Shown here: positions 4,014 through 62,226 of the stretch, piece by piece | Layout of the letters: each line of letters opens with the position of its first letter | Numbering within the stretch: the first letter of the stretch is position 1 | Source: Candidatus Nitrosotenuis cloacae | GTDB taxonomy: Archaea; Thermoproteota; Nitrososphaeria; Nitrososphaerales; Nitrosopumilaceae | Reading direction: 5' to 3' | DNA: 64,000 nt | NCBI RefSeq assembly: GCF_026768455.1 | Contig: NZ_JAPPVQ010000006.1 | Coordinates: forward strand, 62,001-126,000 | Program-made: the position numbers and the translations under genes | Notes under the pieces: model-generated | What the model was told of the DNA's origin: nothing | What the model saw: the letters and a program-made list of their open reading frames with translations, nothing else | The model's database searches: none

Positions 4014-4565
4014 GTGTTAAAGAAGAGAATCATATTCTTTTTCATCTTTCTGGCAGTGTTTTCCGCAGCGTTTTCTCTGGGCGCCGAGATGGAGGTTCCA
4101 GAACAGGAGGCCAAGATATTCCTTGACGAGTTCAACAAGCTTCTCACCGCGCTGCAATCTGGAAACTTTGGGCTTGAGATATTTCTGCACAACGTAGAGA
4201 TCGCACTTCCTATGTTCATACCGGGGTTCGGCATGGCCTGGGGCGTCTTTTCCGCATTCTCTACTGGCTTTGCGTTTGCCGCTCTTTCCACCACCGCACC
4301 GCAACTGATGCAGATTCCACCTCTTACGATGATCTTTGCCACACCGTTTGGGCTGATGGAGATTGCCGCCTACTCCCTTGGCATGTCGCGCAGCTTCCTC
4401 ATAATGGTGGCAATACTCAAAAAGTCGCAGCTAAAGCAGCAGTGGAAGCCGACTGTGATCGAGGTGGCAATTGTGGTGGGGCTGCTTCTGGCAGGAGGAA
4501 TAATCGAGGCGTACATGATTGAGACGTTCGCAGGCCCGGATCCGTTCCCAAAGATAAATCAGTGA
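4014..4565 (+). CDS. SpoIIM/DUF95-like integral membrane protein
   Basis: A 183-residue membrane protein with a GTG start (TTG at 4017 also possible). An N-terminal hydrophobic segment (residues 5-24) is followed by a short extracytoplasmic helix region. Two to three further membrane segments follow, with NVEIALPMFIPGFGMAWGVFS, a pattern I associate with the SpoIIM family (small N-F-x-N-N type first motif, then a G-rich helix). In archaea the role of this family is not established. It precedes, on the same strand but 70 bp away, a secreted cupredoxin-like gene; co-transcription is uncertain. Confidence 0.65.
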   Translation: MLKKRIIFFFIFLAVFSAAFSLGAEMEVPEQEAKIFLDEFNKLLTALQSGNFGLEIFLHNVEIALPMFIPGFGMAWGVFSAFSTGFAFAALSTTAPQLMQIPPLTMIFATPFGLMEIAAYSLGMSRSFLIMVAILKKSQLKQQWKPTVIEVAIVVGLLLAGGIIEAYMIETFAGPDPFPKINQ

Positions 4566-21916: not shown

Positions 21917-22633
21917 ATGAGCGAGTTCTCCGACCAAGAAAAGTCCGGGCTATACAAGGCAATCTACACGCGACGCGATGTGAGATCCCACTTTAACACA
22001 AAGCCGATAGATGATGAGGCTCTGGCAAGAATTCTAAGCGCTGCCCATCACGCCCCGTCGGTGGGATTTTCGCAACCATGGAACTTTGTGCTGATTCGCG
22101 ACTCTGCTACAAAGGAGCAGGTGAAAAAATCATTCGAGGAGGAGAGACTTAGATCCTCAAAACAGGTGGAGGAGGAAAAAAAGGACAAGTACATGTCACT
22201 TAAGCTCGAGGGAATATCCGAGTCGGACGTAAACATCTGCATCACGTACGATCCTACAAGATTCGGCCCGTTTGTGATAGGAAGATCCAGCATACCTGAG
22301 ACTGGCATCTACAGCGTCTGCTGTGCCGTACAGAATCTGTGGCTTGCCGCCCGCTCCGAGGAGATCGGCGTGGGCTGGGTGAGCATCCTCTCAAATGAGG
22401 CGCTAAAGAAGGTGCTAGGACTGCCTGAACACATAATCCCGGTGGCATACCTGTGCCTTGGACACGTAAGCGAGTTTGCGGAAAGGCCGGACCTTGAGAC
22501 GGCAAAGTGGCTGCCGCGACTTGAGCTAAAGGATGTGGTATACTTTGAAAAATGGGGCCAGACCAAGCCAAATCCAATCTGGGAACAGATTTACGAGCTG
22601 GTCAGGGCGAATTTTGATTATGCTTTTAAGTGA
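21917..22633 (+). CDS. bluB: 5,6-Dimethylbenzimidazole synthase (BluB)
   Basis: A 238-residue flavin-destructase that converts reduced FMN to dimethylbenzimidazole, the lower ligand of vitamin B12. The nitroreductase-fold features are YTRRDVRSHFNTKPIDDEAL, HHAPSVGFSQPWNFVLI and the C-terminal GWVSILS. The combination TRRDVR plus PSVGFSQPW is typical of BluB and not of generic nitroreductases. Its presence implies this archaeon makes true cobalamin de novo. A TATA-like CTTTAAAC lies about 30 nt before the ATG. Just downstream on the same strand is the tRNA-Arg gene. Confidence 0.9.
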   Translation: MSEFSDQEKSGLYKAIYTRRDVRSHFNTKPIDDEALARILSAAHHAPSVGFSQPWNFVLIRDSATKEQVKKSFEEERLRSSKQVEEEKKDKYMSLKLEGISESDVNICITYDPTRFGPFVIGRSSIPETGIYSVCCAVQNLWLAARSEEIGVGWVSILSNEALKKVLGLPEHIIPVAYLCLGHVSEFAERPDLETAKWLPRLELKDVVYFEKWGQTKPNPIWEQIYELVRANFDYAFK

Positions 22634-30172: not shown

Positions 30173-30502
30173 ATGGACAGACTCGAGTCAATCTTTTCCA
30201 TGCAGAAGGGACTTGCAGAAATGATGAACCTTGACCGGTACTCCAAGGATACGGAGGGACGTGTGTCCGCTCTCTGCACTGCAATAATTCATGAGGCGGT
30301 GGAGCTGCAGCGCACAACCAACTGGAAGTGGTGGAAAAAGCCGACACCGTTCAATGTGGACGATGCAAGAGAGGAGCTCATCGACATCTGGCATTTCGTA
30401 GTTCAGGCCTCACTTGAGCTGAACCTGACGCCGGACGATATCATGGAAGAATACAAGAGAAAAAACGAGATAAACCGAGACAGGCAGCGAAACGGCTACT
30501 AG
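30173..30502 (+). CDS. All-alpha NTP pyrophosphatase, dimeric dUTPase/MazG-like
   Basis: A 109-residue helical enzyme. The EAVELQRTTNWKWWKK segment and REELIDIWHFVVQASLELNLTPDDIMEEYKRKNEINRDRQ reproduce the metal-binding ExxE...ExxD pattern and the conserved KWWK and KNExNxxRQ signatures of dimeric dUTP diphosphatases. It most likely hydrolyses dUTP or a related nucleotide to keep uracil out of DNA. It is a compact single-domain version. The stop overlaps the convergent MtrA-like gene by 4 bp. Confidence 0.8.
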   Translation: MDRLESIFSMQKGLAEMMNLDRYSKDTEGRVSALCTAIIHEAVELQRTTNWKWWKKPTPFNVDDAREELIDIWHFVVQASLELNLTPDDIMEEYKRKNEINRDRQRNGY

Positions 30503-30957
30503 TCCAGTATGCGGTACGGTCGCGTCTCTCCAATTTTGTCTATTATACTGATCTGTCTTTGAAACTGGGCAACCTCCGACTCTGTCACGGTAAGGACCGG
30601 ATCTGGGCTTACCGAGTTGATTATCCTGCCATCACCATCTATTCCATGTCTGTGCACCAATAGCAGTGAGTGCCCCGCCCGGTGGCCGCTCACCTCCTTT
30701 CCGCAAAGGATTATGGTAGTTATGTTCGGGTTTTTGTTCACATGTCGGATCAGCGCGTCTATCCCCTTATTCTCCGACAGCAGCCTTCCCGCAAGAGCTA
30801 TTCTTTCCATCATGACAGATGATGCAATCTCCCTTAGCAGATTCATGCTGGACAGCGTGCAGACTGCAACCGAGGATGAGGGGTTCCCATAGAACACGTC
30901 GTCTGGTATGGGAAGAAGAACCTTGCACAGCCTTCCCGCAACCTCGAGCAGATTCAT
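30499..30957 (-). CDS. Free-standing MtrA-like corrinoid-binding protein
   Basis: A 152-residue soluble protein from ATG 30957 (frame open further but upstream of the coupled start). IPDDVFYGNPSSSVAVCTLSS, ERIALAGRLLSENKGIDALI and TIILCGKEVSGHRAGHSLLLVHRHGID match the cytoplasmic domain of subunit A of tetrahydromethanopterin S-methyltransferase. His92 or His96 in the GHRAGH segment is the candidate cobalt ligand. The C-terminal membrane anchor of methanogen MtrA is missing, and no other Mtr subunit is in the window. The ATG overlaps the stop of the DegT aminotransferase gene (ATGA), so the two are translationally coupled. Confidence 0.8.
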   Translation of the reverse strand: MNLLEVAGRLCKVLLPIPDDVFYGNPSSSVAVCTLSSMNLLREIASSVMMERIALAGRLLSENKGIDALIRHVNKNPNITTIILCGKEVSGHRAGHSLLLVHRHGIDGDGRIINSVSPDPVLTVTESEVAQFQRQISIIDKIGETRPYRILD

Positions 30958-32036
30958 GCCATGTCGTGAATTATCCTTGCAGTGGTTTCCAGATGACTCT
31001 GTTTTACCATCGGCTGGACTGGTAGGGACAGCACGTTTGATGCGGCCCACTCTGTGTTTGGCAGCGAGATCTTTTTGTTGTGATACGGAGTCTTGTGTGC
31101 CGGTATGGAATAGTAGACCGTAGCGCCGATTCCAGAGTCGTTGAGTTTTTTCATTATACCGTTGCGCATCTTGGTGGCTATCGTGTACAGGTACCAGTTT
31201 ACCTGCACCCCCTTCCTCTCTTCTGGAAGTGTCACATTTGCACCTGAGAGCAACTCTGTTAGGATTCTTGCATTCTTCTTTCTTGCGGCAAGGAACTTGG
31301 GCAGCTTTTTCATCTGCACCTTTGCGATTGCCGCATTAATCTCCGGCAGCCTGAAATTCAGTCCAAGTATCCTCGTGTCGTATCCGTGAACCATTCCGTG
31401 ATTTCTAATCATCAGCAGTTTTTCCCAGAGCTTCTTATCCGAGGTAACTATCACACCACCCTCGCCCGATGTCATCACCTTTGCCGCATACAGCGAAAAA
31501 CATCCAAGTTTGGAGAACGTACCTGTCTGCTTTCCCTTGTAGGTCGAGCCCATCGACTGCGCAGCATCCTCAATTACATCCAAGTTCTGCTTGTCTGCAA
31601 TCTCTGATATCTCGTCCATGTACGCGACATTTCCGTACAGATGCACCGGGATGATCGCCTTTGTCCTCCTTGTTATCTTTCTTTTGAGGTCAACAGGATC
31701 CATGGTATAATTCTGCTTTAGAATGTCAACAAAGACCGGCTTTGCTCCAACTGAGACCACAGCGTTTGCGGTTGCAACAAAGGTAAATGATGGCAGCAGG
31801 ACCTCGTCGCCGTGCTTTACATCCAAGGCGTACAGTGCCGCCTGCAGTGCCGCAGTGCCAGAGTTTACCGCAACCGCATATTTTGATTTGATAAATGAGC
31901 ATACGTTTCTCTCAAATTCCTGCACGTTCCTTCCGCCCAGGCTCGCAGACGATGTGAGTGCCCCACCTTTTAGTACCGCGTTTACCTCAGCAATCTCCTC
32001 TCGCCCAATATACGGCACGTTTACAGGAATTTTCAT
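30954..32036 (-). CDS. DegT/DnrJ/EryC1-type sugar aminotransferase
   Basis: A 360-residue PLP enzyme that usually forms amino sugars from nucleotide-linked keto sugars. It has the N-terminal NVPYIGREEIAEVNAVLKGG, the VNSGTAALQAAL cofactor loop, EDAAQSMGSTYKGKQTG, and the PLP Lys in KVMTSGEGGVIVT. Its usual context is surface glycan synthesis, but here it is coupled by ATGA to an MtrA-like gene, which is unexpected. Length and motifs are normal, so the protein is probably functional. Confidence 0.9.
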   Translation of the reverse strand: MKIPVNVPYIGREEIAEVNAVLKGGALTSSASLGGRNVQEFERNVCSFIKSKYAVAVNSGTAALQAALYALDVKHGDEVLLPSFTFVATANAVVSVGAKPVFVDILKQNYTMDPVDLKRKITRRTKAIIPVHLYGNVAYMDEISEIADKQNLDVIEDAAQSMGSTYKGKQTGTFSKLGCFSLYAAKVMTSGEGGVIVTSDKKLWEKLLMIRNHGMVHGYDTRILGLNFRLPEINAAIAKVQMKKLPKFLAARKKNARILTELLSGANVTLPEERKGVQVNWYLYTIATKMRNGIMKKLNDSGIGATVYYSIPAHKTPYHNKKISLPNTEWAASNVLSLPVQPMVKQSHLETTARIIHDMA

Positions 32037-34567: not shown

Positions 34568-36010
34568 TTATCTTTTGGGTAGATCAATCACTGGGCAGTT
34601 AATCACGTGGTCGCTGCTCAGCGGCCTTGCAAGCGTGACAAAAATACTGCCGTCGGATTTCTTGCTGTCGATGTCTGACATTGTTTCCAAGATCATCGCG
34701 GCACCCTCATTCTTCCATTCAGCAATTGATACGCGACACAGCGGGGCATAGCTTTCGTCCGGTTTTACATCTATGACGCTCTGCTGGAATCCAAGCGGTC
34801 CTGCCCCCTTTATGCCGTTTTTGAACTGGTACATGTCCGAAAATACCGGCGACGACAGCGCTTGCGCAATCTTTGATGCGGCCGGCACACCGATTACCTG
34901 CGCTGGGCCGGTCGGAGTCGCGTCTGTGACTATGTAATAGAGTGTTCTTCCGTCCGCACCCCACGCCCTGTGCGCAATAAACGTGACCTTCTTTGAATCC
35001 CTGTCAATCTCCGTAACCTGCCCCTTGTCAAACGATGCGTCCGATGCGTTTGTCACGTTCTTGACCAGCATCTGCCCGCCAGGCCAGGAGATCTGGGGCG
35101 CGTTAATTGTCACGTTTGTATTTGTGATCTTTACCCTGCTGTCCCTTGCGGCCTTTAGCACGTCGTCTGCAGAGTCCAGTACCTGCGGCTTTTGCCCGTT
35201 CTTCCATGACACCAATGACACGCTACGAAGCGGGCTGTATTTTTCCGGCTGCGCCGGCGTGCTTGCAAACACCTCGCCCTGAAAACCATACAACCCGTCA
35301 CCCTTTATGCCGTTTGTGAACATGTATACGGGATCCTGCGACGCGGCCGGCGCCCACCTCAGCTTTGGCGCAAACTGTACTGCCGCACCCTGTTTGTCTG
35401 CAATCCTTTCTGCCAGCGTCTTGTTGCTCGAATCGGTAATGATGTAGTACACGGAATCCTTGCCAAAAAATCCCGAGTGCATCGAAAGCGTCACTTTTAC
35501 GTGCGAGTCGGGAAGCGTAAACGACCTGTCCCCTGCCTCAAACGTCTGCACCATCACCTCGGTTGGCTGCCCCCTGATCCAGCCGTCTACACTCACCGTG
35601 ACAGTAAACGGGCCCGCGCTCCGGAAACCAAGTGCCGCACCTGTGAACTCGACAGAGTCTGCAGTTTTAGCAGGCTCCAACGCGGAGATACCGTATACGG
35701 TATTCCTGTCAACACTCCATGTCGGCTGCCCCTTCGAGTCGTCTCTTCCCAACTCGTGCAGCACTACCACCTCTACCGGTTGATTTGCAGTGTATGTGAG
35801 CGAGCCGGCGTAGATGCTCCCCCTGTTTGGCGACAGAATCAGGGCAAGCTGGCCTTTTCCGGTTGCGGGATCTGGTGACGACGTGACCGTCTTTGTAAAC
35901 TGGATCTTGCTCTGCGGCTTTGCAGTTGCAAACTGGTCGGAGAATATGGAAAATGAAATGGTGGCAGTCGAGACTGCAACAACTAGTGCCACAATGAGCA
36001 GTTTTCTCAA
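34568..36010 (-). CDS. Secreted protein with tandem repeated beta domain
   Basis: A 480-residue exported protein; signal peptide to about residue 29 (FATAKPQ). Residues about 190-310 and 345-475 are two copies of one domain. Each starts with YYIITD or YYIVTD, then MFTNGIKGDGLYGFQ or QFKNGIKGAGPLGFQ, then a YxPLxxVS and W-K-N line. The first 185 residues are a separate beta domain (VEVVVLHELGR). I know this repeat only as an uncharacterised archaeal extracellular domain. No membrane anchor is visible at the C-terminus. Confidence 0.75.
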   Translation of the reverse strand: MRKLLIVALVVAVSTATISFSIFSDQFATAKPQSKIQFTKTVTSSPDPATGKGQLALILSPNRGSIYAGSLTYTANQPVEVVVLHELGRDDSKGQPTWSVDRNTVYGISALEPAKTADSVEFTGAALGFRSAGPFTVTVSVDGWIRGQPTEVMVQTFEAGDRSFTLPDSHVKVTLSMHSGFFGKDSVYYIITDSSNKTLAERIADKQGAAVQFAPKLRWAPAASQDPVYMFTNGIKGDGLYGFQGEVFASTPAQPEKYSPLRSVSLVSWKNGQKPQVLDSADDVLKAARDSRVKITNTNVTINAPQISWPGGQMLVKNVTNASDASFDKGQVTEIDRDSKKVTFIAHRAWGADGRTLYYIVTDATPTGPAQVIGVPAASKIAQALSSPVFSDMYQFKNGIKGAGPLGFQQSVIDVKPDESYAPLCRVSIAEWKNEGAAMILETMSDIDSKKSDGSIFVTLARPLSSDHVINCPVIDLPKR

Positions 36011-61885: not shown

Positions 61886-62226
61886 TAGATTTTCACCTCC
61901 ATACGATTTGAGTTTGTCAAATGATTGTCATCCACTAAGCTCCTGCACATCGCATGTGAAGTCCTGATCTCAAAGTTACAGTTTTGACACGATCTAACTA
62001 CTGACCTCTTGCACACAATACATGATGCCAACTGAATTAACGCGCCGTCACAATAATCGCATGCGTATAACAATCGCTTCATCACATTTTGATATTCATT
62101 TAGCGTGGAACCAAAGGAATGTGAGTAAACCGATTGACAACTTCCGGTTTCTTTTCCAATATCTTTGTAATTCATACTATGTAAACTACAATTTATTATT
62201 AGACAATAGCTAACCGTTTGCGGCAT
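61885..62226 (-). CDS. Cys-rich zinc-binding-like protein
   Basis: A 113-residue frame from ATG 62226; ATG 62175 (MNYKDIGKE) is an alternative. The second half holds CDYCDGALIQLASCIVCKRSVVRSCQNCNFEI and a final CRS, giving three CxxC pairs for one or two zinc ions, in a pattern similar to the 64-residue gene at 63080. The ATG at 62226 lies inside the repeated GGCATGCC palindrome, consistent with a leaderless start there. It is coupled (TAATG) to the secreted gene 61436-61885. Confidence 0.55.
   Translation of the reverse strand: MPQTVSYCLIINCSLHSMNYKDIGKETGSCQSVYSHSFGSTLNEYQNVMKRLLYACDYCDGALIQLASCIVCKRSVVRSCQNCNFEIRTSHAMCRSLVDDNHLTNSNRMEVKI

Follow-up and report, generated by a model that had tools for sequence, protein, structure and literature searches.

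The window analyzed here is a 64,000-nucleotide stretch of Candidatus Nitrosotenuis cloacae DNA (positions 62,001 to 126,000 of contig NZ_JAPPVQ010000006.1), numbered from its first base. It contains the following features.

21917-22633, plus strand: BluB (5,6-dimethylbenzimidazole synthase), context only
30173-30502, plus strand: MazG-like dUTPase_2 protein, convergent neighbor of the MtrA-like gene
30499-30957, minus strand: soluble MtrA-domain protein of 152 aa, ATG start, PF04208 match
30682-30684, minus strand: codon of the axial His92 of the MtrA-like gene
30772-30774, minus strand: codon of Glu62 of the MtrA-like gene
30954-32036, minus strand: DegT/DnrJ/EryC1/StrS aminotransferase (PLP, sugar-type) of 360 aa, profile score 378 bits
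33765-34541, minus strand: CbiH (precorrin-3B C17-methyltransferase), nearest B12 gene, context only

The MtrA-like and DegT genes share bases 30954-30957, which read ATGA on the minus strand. This confirmed the coupling of an MtrA domain to a DegT aminotransferase described in an earlier note on this DNA, and the bluB and cbiH genes that it reported are also present, ~8 kb and ~3 kb from the MtrA-like gene, respectively. A longer frame for the MtrA-like gene, with a GTG start and extending to 31050, overlaps the aminotransferase gene without orthologue support and was dropped. A DUF7482 protein encoded at 34568-36010 adjoins CbiH and is kept in Nitrosopumilaceae synteny.

The predicted protein matched the Pfam MtrA family (PF04208) at 79.9 bits (curated cut-off, 25; E = 2.2e-22) and MtrA chains in the PDB at E values of 3e-18 to 8e-12. 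NCBIfam MtrA models were also matched, with scores under their curated cut-offs, as expected for a divergent relative. The AlphaFold (AF2) model had a mean pLDDT of 85.5, with low values for the first 18 residues, and TM scores of 0.74-0.78 against apo and cobalamin-bound MtrA structures (5l8x, 5laa, and 9qtr). Differences at the three codon positions (0.33/0.18/0.53) indicated that the gene is real and under selection. The 152-aa protein stops after the domain, without the C-terminal juxtamembrane segment and transmembrane helix, and no transmembrane-like stretch was found in it (maximum 19-residue hydropathy, 1.1). The genome has one PF04208 gene, and MtrH was not found in this genome or in any of 19 genomes of ammonia-oxidizing archaea (AOA) tested. 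No gene for MtrB-MtrG was noticed beside it. The gene is thus a stand-alone relative of the B12-carrying subunit of methanogens, lacking MtrH and the anchor, and the earlier description of a solitary soluble MtrA holds. A literature search of limited extent returned no paper on the AOA MtrA-like gene.

In methanogen MtrA, His84 is the cobalt ligand and is bonded to Glu54, Asn55 and Gly57 touch the cofactor, and next comes a meander, GAIPF(Y/F)xEN (PMC4915002); the segment around residues 112-116 has been modeled against MtrD and MtrE (PMC10998594). The AOA protein, about 26-35% identical to methanogen Mtr-complex MtrA (PDB 5l8x, 8q3v, and 9qtr), resembles it in fold (TM 0.75-0.78) and carries equivalents of all four residues: His92 (His84), Glu62 (Glu54), Asn63 (Asn55), and Gly65 (Gly57). 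Among 124 distinct AOA sequences, His92, Glu62, and Asn63 were invariant (124/124) and Gly65 was also kept in all, within a motif reading SEN.G in 119 and TEN.G in five. The earlier note had singled out both His92 and His96 as residues to be retained in orthologues; His92, which occupies the cobalt-ligand position, is retained throughout, and His96 is variable. Some relatives elsewhere in the phylum carry TAN and Phe/Tyr at the Glu and His places, so the motif is able to decay and the conserved site residues are not simply structural. In contrast, the meander modeled against MtrD/MtrE, GAIP(F/Y)xEN, is replaced in the AOA sequences by SPDPxL-T and similar stretches. Together, the retained His, Glu, and Asn, the fold match, and the replaced meander make it likely that the AOA protein binds a corrinoid and unlikely that it couples to MtrCDE.

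Soluble, anchorless MtrA domains also occur in methanogens. Like the AOA protein, the cytoplasmic homologue of M. fervidus (PDB 5laa) is a soluble single domain that keeps the His ligand. The methanogen cytoplasmic homologues, however, share 60-97% identity with truncated membrane MtrA and are found beside a full Mtr complex, whereas the AOA sequences have diverged much further and carry a short GxxCxxxxPI extension at the N terminus. The portion of PMC4915002 that treats these anchorless homologues assigns them no separate function. MtrA-like domains outside Mtr are also found in other Thermoproteota, as fusions to thymidylate synthase or to a pterin-binding DUF4346 domain. These differ from the AOA protein in having a second domain and a replaced Glu54, and sometimes a replaced His.

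Such fusions, together with the dUTPase gene, which is a conserved convergent neighbor in Nitrosopumilaceae and several Nitrososphaeraceae genera, would suit a relic domain that has given up corrinoid binding and is kept for a structural or a pterin- or nucleotide-related role, as would the dispensability of the gene and its decay in some genomes. We consider this improbable: all cobalamin contacts examined are retained in the AOA protein, whereas many fused relatives have replaced Glu54 and some have replaced His84. A thymidylate link was rejected, as the tandem ThyX of AOA is present with or without MtrA.

Distribution was surveyed in 300 genomes of the order, for which family names were inferred (f1, Nitrosopumilaceae; f8, Nitrososphaeraceae; f2, probably Nitrosocaldaceae). 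The MtrA-like gene was present in 177 genomes, including 111 of the 131 listed Nitrosopumilaceae, most listed Nitrososphaeraceae, and members of AOA families f2 and f3. The AOA sequences form one clade (support 100/99), to which the nearest protein is an MtrA-DUF4346 protein (L194) with TEN and the His kept (99/79). Lineages without the gene include small genomes (genera g9 and g15) that nevertheless carry cbiC. Loss of the MtrA-like gene together with B12 synthesis was ruled out, as CbiC was present in 35/35 genomes; cobalamin synthesis therefore does not need MtrA. The apparent loss in genome G290 reflects a contig end.

Linkage to DegT is a feature of one family. The aminotransferase gene was adjacent to the MtrA-like gene in 77/80 named Nitrosopumilaceae-type loci, with the -4 overlap in 64 of the 80. 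Outside Nitrosopumilaceae the two genes lie apart: they are unlinked in Nitrososphaeraceae, DegT is 1.9 kb upstream in f3 locus L053, and DegT was not detected in two f2 genomes tested, both with MtrA. Within Nitrosopumilaceae, DegT is kept where MtrA has been deleted (L074, L078, and L080) or is a pseudogene (L075), and MtrA is kept where DegT has been cleanly deleted (L119 and L171). Joint inheritance thus fails, and DegT was rejected as a functional partner; we take the overlap to reflect how the operon is organized in this family and not a shared pathway. The earlier note had proposed mapping co-occurrence of the pair across thaumarchaeal genomes; tight linkage of the two genes holds in Nitrosopumilaceae and not in the other families. 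The pseudogene in L075 (positions 4083-4532; genome G177) is decaying between the dUTPase gene and an intact DegT gene.

The earlier note had suggested a corrinoid-dependent methyl transfer or carrier function, possibly tied to the modification of amino sugars or surface glycans. Its corrinoid part is borne out by the site residues. Its glycan part is not: even with the translational overlap conserved in Nitrosopumilaceae, each gene survives loss of the other and no glycan gene was found among the identified neighbors of the MtrA-like gene, which makes a shared sugar-modifying role very improbable.

The gene neighbors instead point to B12 handling. Directly upstream of the MtrA-like gene in f2 (5/5), f3 (2/2), and several Nitrososphaeraceae genera (g27, 3/3; g39, 1/1; g49, 6/6; g51, 2/3 loci) is a gene for a PNPOx-like split-barrel protein (PF01243); Rv2991 and FMN-binding proteins are among its closest matches of solved structure. 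CobA is the divergent neighbor in Nitrososphaeraceae genera g27 (3/3), g51 (3/3), g58 (2/2), and g42 (2/4 loci). In g27, g49, and g51, MetK and CbiD are encoded 1.7-6.2 kb downstream, and CbiG, CbiX/CbiC, CobB, and CobA lie beyond MetK/CbiD in genome G089. None of these linkages was found in genus g55. By a rough estimate, a random gene in a 3-Mb genome has a ~1% chance of having CobA or CbiD no more than 6 kb away; the Nitrososphaeraceae neighborhood may represent one ancestral arrangement and not several independent events. In Nitrosopumilaceae, the split-barrel gene and MtrA are not neighbors; the genome studied here, for example, has its split-barrel gene on contig C14. Its orthologue occurred in 86/111 Nitrosopumilaceae genomes with MtrA versus 6/20 without it (Fisher p = 6e-5, phylogeny ignored), and one of those six is a contig-end case. 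A close orthologue was lacking in the other 25 of the 111, so that co-occurrence is not strict and the association in this family is loose.

We tentatively favor a role for the MtrA-like protein as a B12 carrier that takes part in the reduction, adenosylation, or delivery of corrinoid, although the odds are somewhat against this specific assignment. It would be a stand-alone cytosolic corrinoid carrier that descends from MtrA's soluble domain. Cobalamin would be bound base-off/His-on through His92, with Glu62 in support, and the protein would most likely hold the organism's own cobalamin during cobalt reduction and adenosylation or hand it on. The candidate electron donor is the flavin/F420-type split-barrel protein and the candidate client is CobA, each of which would contact the MtrA-like protein. 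A role in the sodium-pumping methyltransferase can be set aside because the anchor and the MtrD/E-contacting segment have been lost. The more specific proposal, that in AOA an MtrA domain became a dedicated cobalamin carrier for flavin/F420-dependent reduction and CobA adenosylation, and so a B12-handling protein whose fold has no relation to those known, is more doubtful. Cobalamin trafficking proteins such as MMACHC/CblC offer a likeness in the proposed holding of cobalamin during reduction before it is handed on; their fold differs from that of the MtrA-like protein, and no sequence relation is claimed.

A serious rival, if on balance an unlikely one, is a methyl-carrying corrinoid protein that works with an unrecognized methyltransferase pair, as MtrA does with MtrH but with other partners. 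Moving a methyl group is the known job of MtrA, the AOA protein retains the bond between His and Glu by which Co(I)/Co(III) is tuned, and MetK is nearby in Nitrososphaeraceae, but MtrH was missing from the AOA genomes tested and no methyltransferase is a conserved direct neighbor. Nor was a free methyl-pterin methyltransferase found, as the PF00809 matches are accounted for by a DHPS-type protein and MetH. With MtrH and such a methyltransferase not found, and with MetH, which is split in this genome, available for methionine, we prefer the carrier role over a methyl shuttle. MetE, absent from most genomes, was ruled out as a partner.

AOA have been proposed as major cobalamin producers in water, and methionine synthase, ribonucleotide reductase, and methylmalonyl-CoA mutase are named as their B12 enzymes (PMC4303638). 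A widely conserved predicted corrinoid protein without the methanogenesis partners would extend this picture of B12 handling, and it would show the job of an Mtr part in a non-methanogen.

Other observations concern ThyX and more distant MtrA relatives. The genome studied here, like other AOA, encodes a tandem two-domain ThyX-like protein of ~545 aa with low ThyX-model scores (G000, contig C14, 147870-149207). In other Thermoproteota, L193 joins an MtrA-like domain to thymidylate synthase (PF00303), as L187 and L199-L202 probably do, judging by sequence; two genomes with MtrA-thymidylate synthase (G605 and G582) have no ThyX. Phe replaces the axial His and Ala replaces Glu54 in L190, L197, and L198, the first of which is fused to a pterin-binding DUF4346 domain. 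A 256-aa MtrA relative (L061-L063, families f12/f13, and L002-L006) is clustered with genes for an ArsR-type regulator, an ArsP_1 permease, and DUF169 and thioredoxin-like proteins, and in G037 an MtrH lies ~7.5 kb from it. This relative could belong to metalloid methyl chemistry.
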